A stretch of 64,000 bases of DNA from positions 310,001 to 374,000 of the forward strand of contig NZ_JAAIXZ010000005.1 in assembly GCF_010894435.1 (NCBI RefSeq), in the 5' to 3' direction. Below, in pieces: positions 42,494 through 53,519 of this stretch. A model generated the notes under the pieces. That model was not told the DNA's origin, did no database searches, and worked only from the letters and a program-made list of their open reading frames with translations. Position numbers and translations under genes: made by a program. How positions within the stretch are numbered: position 1 is the stretch's first letter; each line of letters begins with the position of its first letter. Source of the stretch: Pyxidicoccus trucidator. Lineage in GTDB: Bacteria > Myxococcota > Myxococcia > Myxococcales > Myxococcaceae.

Positions 42494-44298
42494 AGGCACC
42501 CGAGGGACTCAAGGGGCTGGCGCGGTGGACGGCGCGCCCCGCCTGGCTGGGCAGCATCGTCGGCACGGTGCTGGCGCTGCTGCACGGCTGGCGCACGGAT
42601 GCACTGCCACAGGGCACCTGGGACGAGATGGGCCTGCTGTTGGCGGCCACGCTGGGGGTGTCGCACTGGCTCATCGGCCTGCATGCCCGGCGCGTGCTCC
42701 GCGTGCTGTTCGCGCTGGGCGAGCAGCGCCTGCCTCCCACGAAGGAGCACCTGCGTGCCGCGCTGCTGGAGGCGCGCGCGTTCCCCGAGAAGACCTTCGC
42801 CTTCATCCTCCAGAACTGGGGGGGCGGCGCGCTGGTCCTGGCCCTCCTCTTCGTGCCCCTGGTGGACGCCCCCTCCCCCTGGCTGATGGGGATTCGCATC
42901 GTCCTGATGGGCGTGTCCCTGGGGCCGCTGAGCGCGCTGTTCCTCTACCTGCTGGTCGCGCGCCGCGCGCGCAACGCCGTGGAGCTCATCGCCGCGCAGG
43001 GGCTGTCGCCGCTGGAGGTGGTGGCCACGGTGCCTCCCCGGCGCATGCAGCTGCGCCGACGCATGGTGCTCTTCACCGCCATCGCGGTGCTCAGCCCCTC
43101 GCTCTTCATCCTCGATGCGTCTGTCTTCCACACCCTGAGCGCGGTGGACCAGGTGCTGGAGGCGTCCACGGAAGATGACAACGCGCGGGCCGTGGAGCGC
43201 GCTCACGAGAACTCCAGGCTGGAGGTGTCAGGGCTCGTCGCCCTGCTGGTGCTGCTCACCGCATACCTGGGCGGCACCGTCATTGCCCAGCCGCTGCGCT
43301 CCATCACCGAGGACGCCACGCGCATCGCCCAGGGGGACCTGCGCCCGCCGCGCGTCATCGCCGCGGAGGACGAGGTGTGGGCCACCTCCGCCGCCTTCGC
43401 GCAGATGCAGACGCAGCTGGGTCAGGCGCTCATCCAGCTGCGCCGCGCGGGCCTGCAGATTTCGACCACCACCGAGCAGCTCGTCGCCACCTCCGGCGAG
43501 CAGGAGTCCGGCGCGGACGAGCAGGCCAGCTCGCTCAACGTGACGAGCGCCACCACCGAGGAGCTGGCGCGCTCGGCGCAGCAGATTGCCGGCAACGCCG
43601 AGTCCGTGTCCGCCATCGCCGAGACGACCTTCGGCGCCGCGCAGACGGGCCAGCGCGGCGCGGCCGCCTTCCTGGGCGCCATGCAGCGCATGAAGGAGGA
43701 CAACCAGGCCATCGCCGACGCCGTCGTCCGCCTCAACAAGCGCGTGCAGCAGATTGGCAAGGTGGTCGAGTTCATCAACGAGATTGCCGACAAGTCGGAC
43801 CTGCTGGCGTTGAACGCCGAGCTGGAGGGCACCAAGGCGGGCGAGGTGGGCCGGGGCTTCTCGCTGGTGGCCGCGGAGATGCGGCGACTGGCGGAGAACG
43901 TCATCCGCTCCACCAAGGCGATTGAGCAGCTCATCGAGGAGATTCGCGACGCCACCCACGCGGCGGTGATGGCCACCGAGGCGGGGCTGAAGACGACGGA
44001 CGCGGGCACGGTGCTGGCGGCCCAGGTGGACGAGAGCCTGAGCCTCATCCTGGAGCTGGCGCGGCAGACGTCCCATGCGGTGCGGAGCATCTCCCTGGCC
44101 ACGCAGCAGCAGCAGACGGGCACGGACCAGCTCGCGGCCGCCATGGGCGACATCCTCCGCGTCACCGAGCAGAACTCGGCGGCCACCAAGCAGATGGCGG
44201 CGGCCAACGCGGACCTGTCCTCGCTGTCCCGGGACTTGAAGCGGGTGGTGGAGCGCTTCCACGTGGGCTCTGGCGTGGACTCTGGAAATGGGGCGTGA
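42490..44298 (+). CDS. Methyl-accepting chemotaxis protein 1, membrane sensor without large periplasmic domain
   Basis: A 602-residue MCP. Several hydrophobic helices in the first 270 residues with only short loops between, then a HAMP-like region (AQPLRSITEDATRIAQGD) and the coiled-coil signalling domain. The hairpin tip reads ADKSDLLALNAELEG then TKAGEVGRGFSLVAAEMRRL, a variant of the usual QTNLLALNAAIEA sequence. The sensor is thus likely membrane-embedded. A 101-nt stretch is identical with the next mcp gene. Confidence 0.93.
   Translation: MKAPEGLKGLARWTARPAWLGSIVGTVLALLHGWRTDALPQGTWDEMGLLLAATLGVSHWLIGLHARRVLRVLFALGEQRLPPTKEHLRAALLEARAFPEKTFAFILQNWGGGALVLALLFVPLVDAPSPWLMGIRIVLMGVSLGPLSALFLYLLVARRARNAVELIAAQGLSPLEVVATVPPRRMQLRRRMVLFTAIAVLSPSLFILDASVFHTLSAVDQVLEASTEDDNARAVERAHENSRLEVSGLVALLVLLTAYLGGTVIAQPLRSITEDATRIAQGDLRPPRVIAAEDEVWATSAAFAQMQTQLGQALIQLRRAGLQISTTTEQLVATSGEQESGADEQASSLNVTSATTEELARSAQQIAGNAESVSAIAETTFGAAQTGQRGAAAFLGAMQRMKEDNQAIADAVVRLNKRVQQIGKVVEFINEIADKSDLLALNAELEGTKAGEVGRGFSLVAAEMRRLAENVIRSTKAIEQLIEEIRDATHAAVMATEAGLKTTDAGTVLAAQVDESLSLILELARQTSHAVRSISLATQQQQTGTDQLAAAMGDILRVTEQNSAATKQMAAANADLSSLSRDLKRVVERFHVGSGVDSGNGA
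43786..43886 (+). repeat. 101-nt segment identical in both mcp genes (copy 1)
   Basis: This segment encoding the signalling tip is base-for-base the same as 45611-45711, including third codon positions, while flanks differ. Confidence 0.85.
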
Positions 44299-44305
44299 GG
44301 GGACC

Positions 44306-46123
44306 ATGAGCACGCGCGAGGGCTCCCGGCGGGCCTCCTTCAGCCGACACCTGATGATTCCCATCCCCCTGGCCAACCTGGTAGGGGCGGTGCTCAGCCT
44401 GTACTTCGCCTCGTTGACCCTGGCCGGGCCGCTGGAAGAGCAGATGGCCTTCTTCGGGGGCATGGGCGCGTTCCTGACGACGATGACGCTGCTGGCGGGC
44501 GCGGCGATATCCCTGGGGCGGATGCGCACCCTGCGCGGGCTGGAGCGCGGGGACGTGCCCTCCACGCCGGAGAAGCTGGCGGCGGCGGTGGCCGAGGTGA
44601 CGCGGGCTCCGGACGACGCCTTCCTCGGCTCGCTGGGGCTGTGGCTGCTCACCACCATCTCCCTGGGGGGCGTCATGTGGGGCCTGGGTGGGGTGCCGTG
44701 GGGGGTGGCGGGGCACATCGCGGGGCTGGGGCTGCTGTTCGGCCCGCTCACCGCGCTGCTCGTCCACTGCCTCGTCATCCTCCGCTCCCGCAGGGTGGTG
44801 CTGTGGCTGGCGGAGCTGGGCATGACGCACCCGCAGCTCATCGCCGCCATGCCCCGCCGGGGAGAGATTCGCGCGCGACTGGTGGCCTTCACCTTCATTT
44901 GCGTGGTGACGCCCGCGGTGCTGTCCGCCCAGCTCGCCACGGCGCTGAGGGAGCAGCTCTTCGCGCGATTGCAGGCGGAGCCCAGCCTGGCCACACAGCA
45001 GTCGATGGCCAACGGGCTGCTCATGGAGGCGCTCATCTCGGGCGGCGTGCTGGTGGTGCTCGTCTTCGGGCTGGCGCTCACCACCGCCTGGCTGGGAGGG
45101 ACGCTGCTGGGCCGGCCCCTGCGCGAGCTGTCCAGCGAGGCGCGGCGCATCGCCGAGGGTGACCTGGCCAGCCCGCGCGTGGTGCCGGCCGAGGACGAAA
45201 TCTGGGACGTGTCCGCCGCCTTCACCACCATGCGCGCGCACCTGGCGGACGTCATGTCCCAGCTCCAGCGCGCCGGAGCGCAGATTTCGGCCACCACGGA
45301 GGAAATCCTCTCCACCTCCGGGCGCTACGAGGCGGGCGCCGCGGAGCAGGCCAGCTCGCTGGACGAGACGAGCGCCACCACGGAGGAGCTGGCGCGCTCG
45401 GCGCGGCAGATTGCCGAGAACGCGGGCTCGGTGGCGGAAATCGCCCACCGCACGCTGGGCGCGGCGCAGCACGGACAGGGCAGCGCGGAGGCCTTCCTCG
45501 GCTCCATGGCCCGCATGCGTCAGGACAATGGCGCCATCGCCTCCGCGGTGGTGCGGCTCAACAAGCGCGTGCAGCAGATTGGCAAGATTGTCGAGTTCAT
45601 CAACGGCGTGGCCGACAAGTCGGACCTGCTGGCGTTGAACGCCGAGCTGGAGGGCACCAAGGCGGGCGAGGTGGGCCGGGGCTTCTCGCTGGTGGCCGCG
45701 GAGATGCGGCGGCTCGCGGAGAACGTGCTGGAGTCCACCAAGGAAATCGAGGGGCTCATCGAGGAGGTGCGCGAGGCGTCCGCCGCGGCCGTGTCCGCCA
45801 CGGAGGGCGGCGTGCGCGCGGTGGAGACGGGCACCAACCTGGCGCAGCAGGTGTCCGAGTCCCTGCGGCAGATTGTGGACCTGGCCGGGCAGACGTCGGA
45901 CGCGGTGCGGACCATCTCCCTGGCCACGCAGCAGCAGCAGACGGGCACGGACCAGCTCGCGGACACGATGGCGGACATCCTCCGCATCACCCAGCAGAGC
46001 CTCAACGCCACCAAGCAGGTGAGCACCGCCAACACGGACCTGCTGGTGCTGGCGAGGGACTTGCGCGGTGTGGTGGAGCGCTTCCAGATTGGCCAGGACA
46101 CGCTCCGGGAGGATGGCGGGTGA
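44306..46123 (+). CDS. Methyl-accepting chemotaxis protein 2, membrane sensor without large periplasmic domain
   Basis: A 605-residue MCP, paralogue of the preceding one. Hydrophobic segments in the first 270 residues (PLANLVGAVLSLYFASLTL, FLTTMTLLAGAAISL, GVAGHIAGLGLLFGPLTALL), HAMP-like LSSEARRIAEGD, then the coiled-coil domain with the same DKSDLLALNAELEG tip. AGGGG precedes the ATG at 44306. The cheA gene starts within its stop (GTGA), so the operon is tightly coupled. Confidence 0.93.
   Translation: MSTREGSRRASFSRHLMIPIPLANLVGAVLSLYFASLTLAGPLEEQMAFFGGMGAFLTTMTLLAGAAISLGRMRTLRGLERGDVPSTPEKLAAAVAEVTRAPDDAFLGSLGLWLLTTISLGGVMWGLGGVPWGVAGHIAGLGLLFGPLTALLVHCLVILRSRRVVLWLAELGMTHPQLIAAMPRRGEIRARLVAFTFICVVTPAVLSAQLATALREQLFARLQAEPSLATQQSMANGLLMEALISGGVLVVLVFGLALTTAWLGGTLLGRPLRELSSEARRIAEGDLASPRVVPAEDEIWDVSAAFTTMRAHLADVMSQLQRAGAQISATTEEILSTSGRYEAGAAEQASSLDETSATTEELARSARQIAENAGSVAEIAHRTLGAAQHGQGSAEAFLGSMARMRQDNGAIASAVVRLNKRVQQIGKIVEFINGVADKSDLLALNAELEGTKAGEVGRGFSLVAAEMRRLAENVLESTKEIEGLIEEVREASAAAVSATEGGVRAVETGTNLAQQVSESLRQIVDLAGQTSDAVRTISLATQQQQTGTDQLADTMADILRITQQSLNATKQVSTANTDLLVLARDLRGVVERFQIGQDTLREDGG
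45611..45711 (+). repeat. 101-nt segment identical in both mcp genes (copy 2)
   Basis: Same sequence as 43786-43886. A second shared block of 50 nt occurs downstream in each gene (CATCTCCCTGG onward, at about 44088 and 45913). Confidence 0.85.
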
Positions 46124-48585
46124 ACCCGAGCGACCGCCTGCTCAAGCAGTTCCGGGACCTGGTGACGGTGCGCCTGGAGCGCATCAACCGGTCGCTCATG
46201 GAGCTGGAGGCCGGCGCGACCGCGGAGGCCGGGCGGGGCGTGCTTCGCGAGCTGCACGGGCTCAAGGGCGAGGCCCGGATGATGGGCTTCGACGACATCA
46301 ACGTGCTCGTCCACGAGATGGAGGAGCTGGTCCGCTGCACCGAGTCCCACCGCTACAGCCTCTCCGCGCCGTCCGCCGATGCGCTCCTGCTGGCCGCCGA
46401 TGCGGTGCTGCTGCTGTCCGGGGCACTGCCCTCCGTGGACGCGCCGCCGCAGGTGGACAAGCTCGTCGGCTCGCTGCGGGCCTGCATCCGCGCGGAGGCG
46501 GACCGCATCGCCCTCCTCGTCATGCCGCAGTCCGCGCCCGTCCCGGCGACTTCCGCCACGAGCCCGCGCGGCGACGCCGGACGGGAGGCCGCGGGCGCGC
46601 CGGCGCCGGGGGGGGGCGAGACTTCGGGAAGCCCGGTGCGGAGCGAGCCTGGGGCCTCGAGCGGTACGGCGCGCAGGGCGCTCCTGTTGAAGAGCGCGCC
46701 CGGCGTGGCCTCGGGAGGTGCTTCCGGCGCCCCGGCAACCCACCGGGAACCGGCACTCCCGCTCGCGGCGGCGGCCACGGCGCCCCCCACCGCCACGTCC
46801 AGCGCGGCGGCGACGATGGGACGGATGCCGGCCCCGAACGCCGCGGCGGGGCGGGGGCCCGGTGGGGCCACGACGCCCGCCCGTCAGGGGGAGGCGCGCA
46901 CGGACACGGCGGTGCGCATCGGCGTGGCCAGCCTGGACGTGCTGACCAGCGCCGTCACCAACCTCACGCAGGTGGCGCGGCGGCGGGAGCTGGCCAACGC
47001 CCGGCGCCTGGCCCTGGCCCGCGAGCTGAGCCAGCTGGCGCGCGAGGCGGAGGACCTGGGGCCCGCGGGGGCGGCGCTGGCCGCGCGGCTGGGCACGGCC
47101 AAGGAGCTGGCCGCCGCGCTCCACCGCGAGTCCAAGCTGCTGTCCAACGCGGAGCTGCGAGATTTGGGGATGGTGGTGGAGGAGGTGCAGACGCTGCGCA
47201 TGCTCCCGCTGTCCGTCCTCTTCGAGCCCTACCCGCGCATGGTGCGGGACTTGTCACGCTCGCTGGGCAAGGAAGTGGAGCTCGTCGTCGACGGCGAGGA
47301 CACCCGCGCGGACCGGGCGGTGGTGGAGGCCCTGCGCGAGCCGCTCATGCACCTGGTGCGCAACGCGCTGGACCACGGGCTGGAGACGCGCGTGGACCGG
47401 GTGGCCTCGGACAAGAAGCCTCGGGGCTGCCTCACGCTGCGCGCCGCGCGCGAGGGCAGCCGCATCGTCCTTCGCGTGGAGGACGACGGCATGGGGCTGG
47501 ACCCCGTCCAGCTGCGCAAGGTGGCGGTGCGCCGGGGCTTCCTGGACGAGGGCGCCGCCAACGCCTTGTCGGACGCCGCCGCCCGCGAGCTCATCTTCCT
47601 CTCCGGCTTCACCTCCCGCGAGGTGGTGACCGACCTGTCGGGTCGGGGCGTGGGGCTGGACGCGGTGCGCACCTCCATCCAGGCGCTGGGCGGCGACGTG
47701 GGGGTGGAGTCCGCGCCCGGCTGGGGCACCATCTTCGAGGTGAGGGTGCCCGTCTCCCTCACCGTGGCGCCGCTGCTCTTCATCCAGGTGGGCGAGGAGA
47801 CGCTGGCCCTCAGCGCCACCCACGTCTCGCGCGCCGTCAAGGTGGAGTCGATGAACCTGTGCGAGGTGGCCGGCCGCCCCTCGCTGCTGGTGGAGGGACG
47901 GGTGCTGCCGCTCGCGCCGCTGGCCTCGCTGCTGGGGCTCGCGCCCGAGCGCCCCGTGCGCGAGGGGGAGCTGGTGCTGGTGGTGCGGAGCCAGGGCGGC
48001 GCCGCCGCGCTGATGGTGGACCGGGTGCTGGAGGAGCGCGTCCAGGCCATCCTCCCCGTACGGGGCGTGCTCGCCCGCTTCGCCCACCTCGCCGGCGCCA
48101 CGTGCCTGGCGGACGGGCGCCTGGCCATGGTGTTGTCGGCCGCCTACCTCACCGCCAGCGCCCATGGCACGGGCCCGCTGCGGCTGCCCCGCTCGACGTC
48201 CCCGGGCCTGGGCTCCCGGCGCCGTCGCATCCTCGTGGTGGACGACTCGCCCCTCACCCGGGAGCTCATCTCCAACCTCCTGGAGGCGGTGGGGTACGAC
48301 ACCGTCATGGCCGGCGACGGGGCCGAGGCCCTGGACACGGTGGACTCCCACCCGCTGGACCTCGTCGTCACGGACCTGGAGATGCCGGGGGTGGACGGCC
48401 TGGAGCTCACCCGGCTCCTCAAGGACCACCCCACCCACTCCCGCCTGCCCGTCGTCATCCTCACCACGCGTGGTGGCGAAGAGGACCGGCGGCGTGGGTT
48501 GGCGGCCGGGGCGGACGGCTACATCACCAAGGGGGACCTGGTACGACAGGACCTGGTGGATGTGGTGGGGCGCCTGTTGGGCTGA
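46120..48585 (+). CDS. cheA: CheA histidine kinase fused to a receiver domain (FrzE-like)
   Basis: An 821-residue hybrid. HPt domain with phosphorylatable His46 in LHGLKGEARMMGF; a long Ala/Pro/Gly linker (about 140-265) where a P2 domain would be; dimerisation and ATP domains with MHLVRNALDHGLE (N box), VEDDGMGLD (G1), GFTSRE and GRGVGLDAVR (G2); a CheW-like P5 domain (LTVAPLLFIQVGEETLAL); and a C-terminal receiver with ILVVDDSPLTREL, Asp752 in VVTDLEMPG and Lys in YITKGD. The order matches FrzE of Myxococcus. GTG start overlaps the mcp stop. Confidence 0.94.
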   Translation: MNPSDRLLKQFRDLVTVRLERINRSLMELEAGATAEAGRGVLRELHGLKGEARMMGFDDINVLVHEMEELVRCTESHRYSLSAPSADALLLAADAVLLLSGALPSVDAPPQVDKLVGSLRACIRAEADRIALLVMPQSAPVPATSATSPRGDAGREAAGAPAPGGGETSGSPVRSEPGASSGTARRALLLKSAPGVASGGASGAPATHREPALPLAAAATAPPTATSSAAATMGRMPAPNAAAGRGPGGATTPARQGEARTDTAVRIGVASLDVLTSAVTNLTQVARRRELANARRLALARELSQLAREAEDLGPAGAALAARLGTAKELAAALHRESKLLSNAELRDLGMVVEEVQTLRMLPLSVLFEPYPRMVRDLSRSLGKEVELVVDGEDTRADRAVVEALREPLMHLVRNALDHGLETRVDRVASDKKPRGCLTLRAAREGSRIVLRVEDDGMGLDPVQLRKVAVRRGFLDEGAANALSDAAARELIFLSGFTSREVVTDLSGRGVGLDAVRTSIQALGGDVGVESAPGWGTIFEVRVPVSLTVAPLLFIQVGEETLALSATHVSRAVKVESMNLCEVAGRPSLLVEGRVLPLAPLASLLGLAPERPVREGELVLVVRSQGGAAALMVDRVLEERVQAILPVRGVLARFAHLAGATCLADGRLAMVLSAAYLTASAHGTGPLRLPRSTSPGLGSRRRRILVVDDSPLTRELISNLLEAVGYDTVMAGDGAEALDTVDSHPLDLVVTDLEMPGVDGLELTRLLKDHPTHSRLPVVILTTRGGEEDRRRGLAAGADGYITKGDLVRQDLVDVVGRLLG

Positions 48586-48629
48586 CAGGCACCGCCCTCA
48601 ACGTCCTGAGGACAGTCCCGCGCATTGGC

Positions 48630-48635
48630 TATACT
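48630..48635 (+). promoter_or_regulatory. TATACT -10 hexamer before cheB
   Basis: TATACT, one base from consensus, lies 31 nt before ATG 48667 in an 81-nt gap, so cheB-cheR may have their own promoter within the cluster. Confidence 0.45.
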
Positions 48636-48666
48636 CCCCGACTCGCGCACGGGGTATGGACAGGGC

Positions 48667-49725
48667 ATGGGCAAGAAAGTGTCGGTGCTGGTGGTCGATG
48701 ACTCACTCATCTGCCGACAGCTCATCTGCGACGCGCTGACGAAGGACCCGGACATCCAGGTCGTGGGCTCCTGCGCGGACGGCAAGCAGGCCATCGAGAT
48801 GACGAAGGAGCTGCGTCCCCACGTCATCACCATGGACGTGGACATGCCCGTCATGGACGGGCTGACGGCCACCGAGCACATCATGGCCGAGTGTCCCACG
48901 CCCATCCTGGTGCTCACGGCGGACCCGCGCTCGCAGGCCCCGGAGCTGACGTACCGCTCGCTGGAGCTGGGGGCGCTCGCCCTGCAGATAAAGCCCGCCA
49001 TCGACGCCGGGCCGGACGCGTGGAACCTGGTCCGCGAAATCAAGCTGCTGTCCTCGGTGCGCGTCATCCGCCACATCCGCCGGCCGCAGAAGGGCAACAT
49101 CACCCCGCCCCGGGTGGCCACCTCGGTGCTGCCGGCGGTGTCCATGGGCGTGGTGGCCGTGGCGGCCAGCACGGGCGGGCCGCAGGTGCTCTTCCGGATG
49201 TTGTCGGAGCTGCCGGCGGACTTCCCGGCGCCCATCGTCATCGTCCAGCACATCAACTCGGCCTTCGCGGAGTCGCTGGCGGGGTGGCTCGGGGGCACCA
49301 GCCGCCTCAAGGTCCGGCTGGCGCAGGACGGCGAGCCGCTGATGCCGGGGCACGTGCTCATCGCCCCGCCGGGGCAGCACCTCGTCATCCCCTTCCGGGG
49401 GCGGGTGGGGCTCAAGCCGGGCGTGGAGCGCGACGGGCACATGCCCTCCGGTACGGTGCTGCTGGAGAGCGCGGCGCGGACCTATGGCCGGCGCGCGGTG
49501 GGCCTGGTGCTCACGGGCATGGGCGCGGATGGCGCGGAGGGGCTCCTGTCCATCAAACAGGCCGGAGGGCTGACGCTGGCGCAGAACGAGGAGTCCTGCG
49601 TGGTCTTCGGCATGCCGGGCGCGGCGGTGGAGCGCAAGGCGGTGGACCACCTCATCCACGGGGACGACGTCGCGAGCACGCTGGCGCGGCTGGCCCGGGG
49701 TGAGTCCCTCGCCGTGGGGCGCTGA
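48667..49725 (+). CDS. cheB: CheB protein-glutamate methylesterase
   Basis: A 352-residue CheB. Receiver domain ([14 protein letters not shown], phosphoacceptor Asp57 in [12 protein letters not shown]) and methylesterase domain with catalytic Ser168 in AASTGGPQ, His195 in VQHIN and Asp288 in [11 protein letters not shown]. It removes receptor methyl groups or deamidates Gln. The presence of CheB and CheR shows that the two MCPs are probably adapted by methylation despite their unusual tips. ATG 48667 has no strong Shine-Dalgarno; an upstream in-frame start at 48625 overlaps the promoter. Confidence 0.94.
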
Positions 49726-49731
49726 GTCCGG

Positions 49732-51036
49732 GTGGGGGCCGCCGAGGCGCGATGGGCGGCTGTGCGTGCCTTTCTCACGGCGCGTACGGGCATGTCGCTG
49801 AGCGGGCCCCAGGTCCGCCGGCTGGATGAGCGGCTGGCCGCGCGCAGCCACGGACTCACCCCTCAGCAGTACCTCAACCACCTCAAGTCCCCGTCCGGCG
49901 CGCTGGAATTGGAGGCGCTCATCAACGCGGTGGTGGTCCACAAGACGGACCTCTTCCGGGACGAGGTGCAGCTCTCCGCCTTTCGCACCCAGGTGCTCGT
50001 TCCGCTGGTGGACCGGGCGCGGCGGCCGCTGCGCGTGTGGAGCGCGGGCTGCGCCACGGGCGAGGAGGTGGCCACGCTGCTGGTGCTGCTGGCGGAGGCG
50101 GGAGCGGAGGCGGGCAGCACGGTGCTGGGCACGGACATCTCCGCGCCCGCGCTGCGGCAGGCCCAGGGGCTGGGCTTCGCCCCGGAGCAGCTCCGCCGGG
50201 TGCCCGCCGGGACGCGCGAGCGCTACTTCGTCCAGGCGGGAGCGCGCGTCGCGCTGGCGCCCGCCCTGCGCGAGCGGGCCACCTTCCAGCTCCACAACCT
50301 GATGGACACGCCGTACCCGGCCCCGGCGGGCGGCGGCGGCTTCGACGTCATCTTCTGCCGCAACGTGCTCATCTACTTCACGGTGGAGGCCTTCCAGCGG
50401 ACGGTGGAGGTGCTCGCCGGAAGTCTGGCGCCCGGCGGCACGCTGGTGCTCTCCTCCTCGGAGCCGCTGCTCCAGTTGCCGACGTCGCTGCGGGTGCTGC
50501 GCGGCGAGCAGGCCTTCTTCTACGTGCGCGCGGACGAGGCCCCCGAAGGTGGGGGCGCCCCGGCCTTCCCCCTGGAGCGGAAGCGGGATTCCGGCAGCTT
50601 CCCGACGGTGGGGGCTCCGGGGCCCGGGGCGAACGGGCGGAAGGGGATTGACGCCGGGCGTCCGGGTGAGGCGGGCCGGGGGCTTCCGTCCGCCCGGCCT
50701 CCGCCACGCGTCGAGCCCGCCTCCGCCGAGGCGGACCACCTCTTCGCGGGCGTCCTCGACGGGACGTCCTCCGGGGGCACGGAGGACGTGGCCGAGAAGG
50801 ACCTTCGCCGCTGCCTCGCGCTGGACCCGGACCACGCCGCCGCGCGCTACCTGCTGGGGCTGCTGCTGGAGCAGGGGGGGCGGCCCGACGAGGCCTGCGT
50901 CGAGTACCGCCGCGCGCTCCAGTCCCTGGAGGCGGGCCGTGCGCGGGCCGTGCCCTTCTTCCTCAACCCCGCCCGGCTCCAGGTGGCCTGCGCGCACGCC
51001 ACCGAGCGCCTGGAGGCGGCCGGCCGGACGGGCTGA
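49732..51036 (+). CDS. cheR: CheR methyltransferase with C-terminal TPR (FrzF-like)
   Basis: A 434-residue protein. CheR N-terminal helical domain (GLTPQQYLNHL, VHKTDLFRDEVQL), SAM domain (VWSAGCATGEEVATL, VLGTDISAPAL, DVIFCRNVLIYF, LVLSSSEPL) and, after a Pro/Gly-rich linker, a short TPR unit (DLRRCLALDPDHAAARYLLG, GRPDEACVEYRRAL). TPR-tailed CheR occurs in Frz systems as FrzF. GTG start, 6 nt after cheB. Confidence 0.93.
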   Translation: MGAAEARWAAVRAFLTARTGMSLSGPQVRRLDERLAARSHGLTPQQYLNHLKSPSGALELEALINAVVVHKTDLFRDEVQLSAFRTQVLVPLVDRARRPLRVWSAGCATGEEVATLLVLLAEAGAEAGSTVLGTDISAPALRQAQGLGFAPEQLRRVPAGTRERYFVQAGARVALAPALRERATFQLHNLMDTPYPAPAGGGGFDVIFCRNVLIYFTVEAFQRTVEVLAGSLAPGGTLVLSSSEPLLQLPTSLRVLRGEQAFFYVRADEAPEGGGAPAFPLERKRDSGSFPTVGAPGPGANGRKGIDAGRPGEAGRGLPSARPPPRVEPASAEADHLFAGVLDGTSSGGTEDVAEKDLRRCLALDPDHAAARYLLGLLLEQGGRPDEACVEYRRALQSLEAGRARAVPFFLNPARLQVACAHATERLEAAGRTG

Positions 51037-51119: not shown

Positions 51120-51968
51120 ATGCGAAGGCTCGTCCTGTTCGCCCTGCTGCTGGCACTCCCTGGTTGCTTCTATCCCGCCGACCGTGGCCGCGCCCTCGAG
51201 GCGAAGGTGGACCGGCTCGGCGCGGAGACTGCCCAGATGCAGGCGGAGTTGAAGGAAGCGCGCGGCCAGCTCGCCGCCACCCTGCCGAAAATCGATGAGA
51301 AGGTCGCCGAGGTCACCAAGGCCCTCCAGGGCCTGGACACCGCCGCGCGCCGCAAGGACGCGGACATCGGCATCCAGCTCCAGAAGTCCGTCGAGGACCT
51401 CGCCCAGCTCCGTGGCCAGGTGGAGACCTACCTCCACAAAATCACCGAGCTGGAGACGGCCCTGGGCGAGCAGGACAAGAAGCTCGTCGCCATGCAGGGC
51501 GCGGAGGCGGTGAAGGAGGCCGAGGCCAAGAAGAAGGCCGAGGAGCTCCAGCGCCCCGCCGACAAGAAGGAGTTCCTCGCGCTCGCCCAGGAGAAGGCGA
51601 AGGCGGGCGACGTGCCCCTGGCGCGCCAGCTCTACAACGAGTTCCTGAAGAAGTGGTCCAAGGACGCGCTGGTGGCGGACGCCCACTATGGCCTCGGCGA
51701 GACGTACTTCACCGAGTCCCGCTGCCGCGAGGCCCTCTTCGAGTACGGCAAGGTGGTGCAGGACTACCCCAAGGCGTCGTCCGCGCCGGACGCGTACCTG
51801 CGCTCCTCGGAGTGCTTCTCCAAGCTGAAGATGAAGGACGAGTCGCGGCTGGCCCTCGAGGAGCTCGTGAAGGGCTACCCGAAGTCCGCGGCGGCCAAGA
51901 CGGCGAAAGAGCGCCTCGCCGAGCTGGACAAGGCCGCGAAGACGCCCGCCAAGAAGGGGAAGAAATGA
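51120..51968 (+). CDS. CpoB/YbgF-like TPR lipoprotein
   Basis: A 282-residue lipoprotein: short signal with lipobox ALPGC, a long coiled coil (about residues 25-140, rich in Glu, Lys and Ala heptads) and C-terminal TPR repeats (LARQLYNEFLKKW, ADAHYGLGETYF, REALFEYGKVVQDYPK, APDAYLRSSECFSKL). This is the CpoB/YbgF layout seen near Tol-Pal, coordinating envelope constriction. The UshA-like gene starts inside its stop codon (ATGA), so both are made together. Confidence 0.9.
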   Translation: MRRLVLFALLLALPGCFYPADRGRALEAKVDRLGAETAQMQAELKEARGQLAATLPKIDEKVAEVTKALQGLDTAARRKDADIGIQLQKSVEDLAQLRGQVETYLHKITELETALGEQDKKLVAMQGAEAVKEAEAKKKAEELQRPADKKEFLALAQEKAKAGDVPLARQLYNEFLKKWSKDALVADAHYGLGETYFTESRCREALFEYGKVVQDYPKASSAPDAYLRSSECFSKLKMKDESRLALEELVKGYPKSAAAKTAKERLAELDKAAKTPAKKGKK

Positions 51969-53110
51969 ACCTGCGTCCGCCGCGGCTCGCCGCGCTCGCG
52001 CTGCTGCTCCTGCTGCCCCTGGTGGCGGGGGCGGCGCCGAAGCAGCTCACGCTGCTCTTCACCGGAGACAACGGGGGCGAAATCGCCCCCTGTGGTTGAA
52101 GGCACAACCCGTCTGGCGGTCTGGCCAGACGAAAGAAGGTGATTGAGCAGGAGCGCGCGAAGGGCGTGCCGGTGCTCGTGCTGGACGCGGGCAATGCGCT
52201 CTTCCGCAGCCGCGACAGTGGCGAGGCCCCGGACGCGAAGGCGCGCGCGGAGCTGCTGCTGTCGCAGCTGGACGCGCAGGGCACCGCGGCCATGGCCGTG
52301 GGCACGCGCGACCTCGTGCTCGGCGTGGACTTCCTCAAGAAGGGGACGAAGAAGGCGAAGCTCAAGCTGCTGTCCGCGAACCTCGTGGACGACAAGGGCA
52401 CGCCCTTCTTCCCGGCCTCCCTGGTGACGGACGTGGGCGGGGTGAAGGTCGGCGTGGTGGGAGTGTCTCCCGCCACGGCCCAGCCGGTAGCCGCGGCTCC
52501 GCCCGTGAAGGGCCGGCCCACGCCCATGATGAAGGGGCTGCCGGTGGAGCCCGCGGTGGCGGCCGAGGCGAAGCGCCTGCGCGAGCAGGAGAAGGTGGAC
52601 CTGGTCGTGGTGCTCGCGGCCGTGCCCTACGACGAGGCCCTCCGCGTCGCCGAGCGGGTGGAGGGCGTGGACTTCGTGGTGCAGTCCCACGAGGGGCGCG
52701 GCCAGGGCATCGCGCAGCGCCAGGCGTTCGCCACCCTCATCCCTCCCGGAGACCGGGGCAGGCAGCTGGCGAAGCTGGAGCTGGGGCTGGACGGCCCCGG
52801 CCGCTTCACCGACATCACCGAGCAGAACCGGGCCCGGCAGAACCTGGGCATCGTCGAGAACAACCTCGCCAAGGCGAAGGAGCGGCTCGCGGCCGAGAAG
52901 GACGCGGCGAAGAAGGCCTCCTATGAGCAGGCGGTTGCCGGCCTGGAAGCCCGGCGGGCGGCCTTGAAGAAAGTGGCCGAGGGGAGCGCAACGGGCGCCG
53001 CCCGGACGCATCTACTGTCGTACATCCAGCTCGGGAGCGACGTGCCGGCGGATCCGGCTGTCCAGAAGCTGGTGGAACGCATCGAGCCTCCCGGCTCGGC
53101 GGCCCACTGA
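51965..53110 (+). CDS. Exported UshA-like (5'-nucleotidase/metallophosphatase-related) selenoprotein, TGA at codon 45 read as selenocysteine
   Basis: A 381-residue product if TGA 52097-52099 is decoded as Sec. Signal peptide MNLRPPRLAALALLLLLPL ending near AGA. The mature start TLLFTGDNGGEIAPCG is followed by Sec45 and RHNPSGGLARRKKV; homologous UshA-related proteins have Cys here in CGC...GGLARR. Then VLVLDAGNALF and MAVGTRDLVLG follow the metallophosphatase outline, and VGVVGVSPA, VDLVVVLAAVPYDEALRVAE, VDFVVQSHEG. The frame is open for 1 kb on both sides of the TGA, and a bacterial SECIS-like hairpin lies right after it. Several calcineurin-type metal histidines are not evident, so enzyme activity is uncertain; the C-terminal 80 residues are coiled coil. 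Coupled to the upstream TPR lipoprotein by ATGA. A plain truncated gene is the alternative, less likely. Confidence 0.88.
52097..52131 (+). promoter_or_regulatory. Selenocysteine UGA codon with bacterial SECIS-like hairpin
   Basis: After UGA (52097-52099) a perfect 8-bp stem pairs 52110-52117 (CGTCTGGC) with 52124-52131 (GCCAGACG) around the loop GGUCUG (52118-52123). The loop begins 18 nt after the UGA, the same distance as the GGUCUG of the E. coli fdhF element as I know it, and has the G in the first two loop positions required for SelB binding. All of it is translated, as in other bacterial SECIS elements. Confidence 0.88.
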
Positions 53111-53222: not shown

Positions 53223-53519
53223 ATGAAGCCCGAGATTCATCCGGTTTATCCCGCTGCCCGAGTGACCTGTGCCTGCGGCAACTCGGTGGAGACGAAGTCC
53301 ACCCGCGGCTCGTTCTCGGTGGAAGTCTGCTCGAACTGCCACCCCTTCTTCACGGGCAAGTACAAGCTCATGGACACGGCCGGCCGTATCGACCGCTTCC
53401 GCAAGAAGTACGCGAACAACCCGGTCAAGGTCGAGGGTGCGGCCGCCGCCGAGGGCGCCGAGGCTGCCCCCGCCGAGAAGCCCGCCGCCGCCAAGAAGGG
53501 CAAGAAGGCCGAGGCCTGA
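53223..53519 (+). CDS. rpmE: 50S ribosomal protein L31
   Basis: A 98-residue zinc-type L31: [20 protein letters not shown] has the first cysteine pair and [20 protein letters not shown] the second with its His, then [10 protein letters not shown]. The C-terminal 30 residues are an Ala/Glu/Lys-rich extension longer than in E. coli, a feature of GC-rich deltaproteobacterial-type genomes. GGAGAG precedes the ATG. Own promoter present. Confidence 0.97.

Follow-up and report, generated by a model that had tools for sequence, protein, structure and literature searches.

UshA-like selenoproteins with a CxU motif (COG0737; NF041198) have been published since 2008; they are listed in PMC2398784, with 76 sequences from the GOS set, and in tables of PMC9312934 and PMC13188914, as given in the accessible portions of these three papers. 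A second family, NF049981 (UshA-like selenoprotein family 2), has a related N-terminal domain, but its motif is CxxU rather than CxU according to the accessible portion of PMC13188914. For myxobacteria, the accessible portion of PMC1794560 gives 11 selenoproteins in Anaeromyxobacter dehalogenans, with UshA not among them; the word "UshA" was not found in PMC1914089, PMC12013277 or PMC8318568, and literature searches on myxobacterial selenoproteins gave no account of the gene described here.

The gene lies in a window of 64,000 nucleotides of the Pyxidicoccus trucidator genome (contig NZ_JAAIXZ010000005.1, positions 310,001 to 374,000), in which a sequence-only reading had proposed an exported UshA-like selenoprotein with a SECIS hairpin like that of fdhF. 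It belongs to an already known selenoprotein kind, of which it is a short form lacking haem motifs. The same domain, the PCG[CU] motif (taken from the name of the model NF041198, UshA_like_PCGU, an equivalog) and the alternation of Sec with Cys are found in both, whereas the branch of the window gene is shorter, appears to lie below the model's cut-off and has CxxCH in none of 68 aligned proteins. The window protein matched NF041198 over model positions 16–374 of 519 with 187.4 bits (E 3.9e-55; cut-off 275), compared with 35.7 bits against NF049981 (cut-off 140), and no significant family was found for it in Pfam. Against NF041198, every one of the 68 aligned members had an E value of 1e-5 or lower, down to 4.4e-62. 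The paralogue L011 of this genome, which is longer and has the same domain fused to a multihaem cytochrome c554 (PF13435), scored 225.7 bits at E 9.7e-67, from which it follows that none of the 68 should reach 275 bits. At its cut-off, the model that identifies the family appears to miss the short branch.

The coordinates of the gene and its features are collected in Table 1. The predicted reading frame starts with ATG, and codon 45 is its sole in-frame stop before the terminal TGA at 53108–53110, in agreement with the sequence-only reading. The start codon overlaps the stop of the upstream ORF by 4 nt (ATGA), in keeping with the proposed coupling to the neighbouring gene. The expected splitting of the gene by automated annotation was seen in a plain ORF listing, which gives 52139–53110 as a separate ORF.

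Table 1. Coordinates in the window of the predicted selenoprotein gene, its features and its immediate neighbours
Feature	Position	Strand	Basis
Predicted selenoprotein gene, short UshA-like PCGU protein, 381 codons, TGA at codon 45 read as Sec	51965..53110	+	
Putative signal peptide, ~23 residues	51965..52033	+	read by eye
Cys43-Gly44-Sec45 motif (TGT GGT TGA), within insertion beside former first metal ligand	52091..52099	+	
TGA, predicted selenocysteine codon	52097..52099	+	
Predicted SECIS hairpin, 8-bp stem, apical loop GGTCTG at 52118-52123, loop start 18 nt after TGA	52110..52131	+	
CpoB/YbgF-like TPR gene, upstream neighbour	51120..51968	+	TIGR02795
rpmE (ribosomal protein L31), downstream neighbour	53223..53519	+	

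To define the residue at column 45, homologous loci were gathered as matches at E 1e-20 or better, together with L011; a C-terminal fragment (G080:C751) was left out, and weaker matches, mostly of the L011 kind, fall outside the set. Seven named records (L053–L059) were dropped because they score and read like genomes already counted. Two of the resulting 121 loci were unreadable: L138 (G049), which starts after the motif and was dropped, and L117 (G027), in which the TGA is present but the frame is broken later and which was counted as UGA at genome level only. The other 119, the window locus included, carried UGA (93 loci in 92 genomes) or Cys (26 loci in 22 genomes) without exception, as expected if the column is only Cys or UGA. 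Most read C-G-[C/U], with L156 reading C-H-C, and C43, G44 and C/U45 were invariant in all 68 aligned members. That TGA might encode an amino acid other than Sec was rejected, since the alternative residue was always Cys in the loci read. Eleven distant matches without the motif (L060–L070) had unrelated residues at this column in nine cases and were unaligned in two, which fits the finding that the PCGUR stretch is an insertion after the first metal ligand relative to E. coli UshA. Some match was found in 93 of 96 genomes of the bacterial family, and in the phylum 104 of 195 genomes had a match at E 1e-20; a usable copy was absent from 11 of the 96 (G001, G046, G048, G049, G052, G081, G082, G084, G085, G086 and G089).

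A sequencing error, one of the refuting outcomes named in the sequence-only reading, is excluded because 92 other loci carry the same TGA. More generally, the codon could be a true stop, in a pseudogene, a misread sequence or a 44-residue leader followed by a 323-residue ORF starting at GTG 52139, and the separate ORF in the plain listing is what such an arrangement would produce. Against it, the frame after the TGA stays open for a median of 329 codons in the 93 UGA loci of 92 genomes, and dN/dS downstream of the TGA was 0.34–0.51 against seven orthologues, indicating purifying selection and therefore not a decaying pseudogene. The hairpin that follows the TGA covaries, and where Cys takes this column, tRNA-Sec was mostly not found (both described below). 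A true stop is accordingly regarded as extremely improbable.

The hairpin proposed downstream of the TGA is present as a perfect 8-bp stem (52110–52117/52124–52131) closed by the GGUCUG loop. The 18-nt spacing from UGA to loop was checked on the E. coli K-12 sequence (NC_000913) and is equal to that of fdhF. The description "fdhF-like" holds for loop and spacing only: the upper stem of the folded fdhF stretch is short and bulged, with additional pairing beneath, whereas the stem of the window gene is perfect over its 8 bp. With its 6-nt loop GGUCUG, 8 bp and 18-nt distance, the hairpin agrees with the bacterial SECIS constraints printed in the accessible portion of PMC13188914. Its folding energy was −17.8 kcal/mol over 54 nt and −16.9 over 48 nt, with z scores of −1.84 and −2.45, respectively, which are moderately unusual at most; the case for a SECIS is carried by conservation and not by folding energy alone. 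Across 100 first-order resampled windows, the mean number of TGA-N18-GGTCTG occurrences on both strands was 0.48, none of them with a stem of at least 5 bp, compared with a single occurrence with an 8-bp stem in the real window.

Conservation of the element was pronounced among the UGA loci. GGUCUN began exactly 18 nt after the UGA in 92 of 93 UGA loci (GGTCTG in 83, GGTCTT in 7, GGTCTC in 2; the remaining locus has GGCTTC), compared with 1 of 26 Cys loci (GGTCTC). Among 48 distinct UGA sequences, 86.7% of stem cells were paired, and slid versions of the stem scored worse than the true register. Double-change cells numbered 22 against a shuffled mean of 6.0, a value reached in 0 of 500 shuffles, while for a second covariation measure, the number of pairs with a double change, 22 of 500 shuffles matched or exceeded the observed value; the shuffles ignore relatedness. 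Covariation was absent from 25 Cys sequences, which paired no better than shuffles (L147, which lacks one codon, was left out of this alignment only). Most pairing resided in the inner five pairs, with pair 15–34 broken in 24 of 48 sequences and pair 16–33 in 13 of 48.

Synonymous identity at Gly51, Gly52 and Ala54 was 1.00 in 51 UGA genes, compared with 0.41, 0.38 and 0.33 in 17 Cys genes; at Arg55 and Arg56 it was not raised in UGA genes (0.48 and 0.53). Of 308 seven-codon windows in other parts of these UGA genes, 2 reached the mean of codons 50–56. Across five ORFs of the window, AGA accounted for 0 of 214 Arg codons and TCT for 1 of 139 Ser codons, and the hairpin uses both. No Rfam family exceeded its gathering score in the window. 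With a SECIS model (R1), a second element of the same type was not found among the 150 of 16,382 candidates scored in the genome; the next match reached 19.9 bits compared with 62.1 for the window hairpin, which is in the model by construction. One UGA copy (L151, in G152) has the loop GGCTTC with its stem kept; G152 also carries another UGA copy, L159, of canonical form.

The genome (12.67 Mb assembly) was searched for the selenocysteine machinery, and all four genes, selA, selB, selC and selD, were present. The tRNA-Sec scored 73.7 bits (cut-off 47) with anticodon tca, selA 557.9 bits, selB 311.8 bits with its C-terminal part included, and selD 374.8 bits. The selD gene carries an in-frame TGA and is a selenoprotein gene itself (LSHCAGUAAKLR; L021 2345-2400, minus strand; C1:52118-53047). 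Its best fold puts a hairpin of ordinary stability (z −0.79), with the loop GUC, some 33 nt downstream of the TGA; this may be a SECIS whose spacing differs from that of the window gene.

Overall, tRNA-Sec was found in 92 of 93 with a UGA copy compared with 2 of 10 with Cys copies only. Within the family the counts were 80 of 81 UGA genomes, a set that includes the window's own genome and G027, against 0 of 4 Cys-only genomes (Fisher 2.5e-6, relatedness ignored; the search filters used here lose weak matches), and for selA 79 of 81 against 1 of 4 (p 4e-4, relatedness ignored). Outside the family, tRNA-Sec was found in 12 of 12 UGA genomes and 2 of 6 Cys-only genomes. On a quick tree of the 68 members the UGA/Cys label changes eight times, six of them forced by starred branches, and of six independent pairs three go with the machinery, none goes against it and three do not differ, a number too small to reach significance (p 0.25).

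A complete Cys-only genome illustrates the association. In G036 (100% complete, two contigs) the syntenic copy has TGC at column 45 and GGCTTG at the loop position, with the TPR and L31 neighbours in place; tRNA-Sec, selA and an over-cut-off selB were all not found. Six stem pairs are still possible in this orthologue, although its lowest-energy fold is another. There were exceptions. G083 (87% complete, 900 contigs) has a UGA copy, and tRNA-Sec, selA and an over-cut-off selB were not found in it; G009 has a UGA copy and no selA was found; G088 has a Cys copy and no tRNA-Sec was found, with selA and selB kept. G106 and G162 have Cys copies together with tRNA-Sec, and neither gave a selB match at E 1e-40. 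The Cys copy of G162 (L147) retains GGTCTG at +15 with one codon missing, in a genome whose tRNA-Sec scores 51.6 bits, possibly a recent loss of Sec. In another genome (G007) two tRNA-Sec matches exceeded the cut-off.

The machinery, the UGA/Cys column and the conserved hairpin together support the central claim of the sequence-only reading, and the TGA at codon 45 is almost certainly a selenocysteine codon, as judged by comparative sequence evidence.

An AF2 model of the window protein (mean pLDDT 91.4, with low confidence in the signal-peptide region) matched the N-terminal domain of the 5'-nucleotidases (CD73/UshA) at Z of about 31 over about 275 residues; the best structural match had Z 31.8 and an rmsd of 2.8 over 276 aligned residues, so that the metallophosphatase fold shared with the E. 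coli 5'-nucleotidase/UDP-sugar hydrolase UshA is present. A helical hairpin is predicted at residues 284–338. The window protein ends at residue 381, and the aligned ranges end at 357–360 of the 506–525-residue UshA chains; judged from the model, the C-terminal substrate-binding domain of UshA is absent. The positions compared for the metal site were those which we take to be the dimetal ligands of E. coli UshA. Here the window protein has H43 replaced by G, D84 by N, N116 by T, H117 by R and H217 by A, with D41 kept. Thus "UshA-like" is apt for the fold and fails for the catalytic site, in which most ligands are replaced. Unlike UshA, the window protein lacks most metal ligands, the catalytic His and the C-terminal domain, and has the PCGUR insertion. 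His117, the catalytic histidine of UshA according to the accessible portion of PMC7922932, corresponds to Arg in 60 of the 68 members. In one alignment 48 of 68 members retain His252 (as H242), while a second alignment setting left His252 and Gln254 unaligned. The window protein could still bind some metal, judging from these residues. Identification as a UshA enzyme was rejected, since the catalytic site is lost.

These data bear on whether the protein, with Sec inserted, might nevertheless belong to the hydrolases of the 5'-nucleotidase/SoxB group, its substrates perhaps being esters of sulfur or selenium that the Cys-Gly-Sec motif would anchor. The protein matches SoxB both in sequence (E 1.8e-13; 49.6 bits against a cut-off of 550, with 54 of 68 members matching) and in fold (Z 29–30), and the retained D41 and, in the one alignment, His252 would suit such an activity. 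The Arg at the catalytic position in most members, the replacement of His43, Asp84, Asn116 and His217 in most of them and the missing substrate domain all argue against hydrolysis, which we consider unlikely.

The preferred reading, that Sec is inserted and that the product is an envelope redox protein on a dead phosphatase scaffold, is given a probability of about 0.7; if Sec coding is granted, the redox role on this scaffold becomes slightly more probable again. Its components differ in strength: Sec coding, the SECIS, the fold and the loss of metal ligands are supported by sequence comparison, while we infer export, redox activity and a partner in trans. The redox role is suggested by the invariant Cys/Sec pair, by the number of Cys/Sec residues, which is exactly two in 50 of 68 aligned proteins (C43 and U45 only in the window protein), and by the cytochrome fusion in the longer paralogue. 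SelB, together with Sec-tRNA(Sec), would bind the hairpin whose GGUCUG loop starts 18 nt after the UGA. With Sec inserted at codon 45, the product would have 381 residues, a putative export signal and the Cys-Gly-Sec motif. It would fold like the metallophosphatase (N-terminal) domain of UshA/5'-nucleotidase with most of the dimetal site lost, and the Cys/Sec pair, predicted to sit in a loop beside the old active site, may act as an envelope thiol/selenol redox centre through a reversible selenenylsulfide, exchanging electrons with a partner in trans.

Two close, invariant Cys/Sec residues in proteins mostly devoid of other Cys would equally suit soft metals, and the motif could instead bind a metal or metalloid (Cu, Hg, Zn or Se) in an envelope carrier or sensor that is not an oxidoreductase. 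The multihaem cytochrome fusion in the paralogue points to electron transfer, and the two immediate neighbours of the window gene are a TPR protein and L31; neither observation is decisive, but a metal carrier or sensor is thought improbable, to the same degree as a hydrolase.

The neighbourhood of the gene was compared across loci. The upstream TPR protein scored 86.4 bits against TIGR02795, just below the cut-off of 90.1. In flanks of about 1.5 kb per locus, some of them cut by contig ends, a CpoB/YbgF-like TPR gene adjoined 86 of 93 UGA loci compared with 6 of 26 Cys loci, and an L31 gene adjoined 50 of 93 compared with 1 of 26. An in-frame start/stop overlap was found 30–61 codons upstream of the UGA in 88 of 93 UGA loci. 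The TPR/L31 neighbourhood points to a cell-envelope setting, as far as gene order can indicate. A common redox partner was not found beside eight distant loci, for each of which the four longest ORFs were read by eye. A plasmid gene was rejected as an origin, there being no match in 72,556 plasmid records.

The name "UshA-like selenoprotein" is now joined to evidence of a lost nucleotidase site in this branch, which points towards redox chemistry, and the gene provides a selenoprotein that is clean and open to testing, in a group to which Myxococcus xanthus (L057) belongs. Because ORF calling splits the gene and the NCBI model falls 88 bits short, it may be misannotated across the phylum. More tentatively, a phylum-wide branch of metallophosphatases might have lost its metals and turned into an envelope oxidoreductase that depends on selenium and is translationally coupled to an envelope protein like CpoB. 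On this idea, which we consider possible but doubtful, the protein could be among the main clients for which myxobacteria keep the selenocysteine machinery, since a relative without the machinery has Cys in place of Sec.

Further copies and neighbours were noted. Sec and Cys copies occur side by side in twelve genomes of the family, the window's own included. The Cys paralogue in this genome (L010; C3:477036-478130) is 53% identical and lies on a separate, starred branch, whose other copies are without a TPR neighbour. Over 57 bases from the TGA, the match in record BNCN01000006.1 (L055) is identical to L039, a locus from a genome of the window's genus, and it scores equally; the record bears the title "Comamonas sp. 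KCTC 72670", a genus name that looks wrong. Directly upstream of the TPR gene in the window lies a chemotaxis-like cluster (44288–51036), named by eye from ORF translations, with a methyl-accepting protein, a CheA-type kinase with a receiver, a CheB-like protein and a CheR-like protein with repeats.
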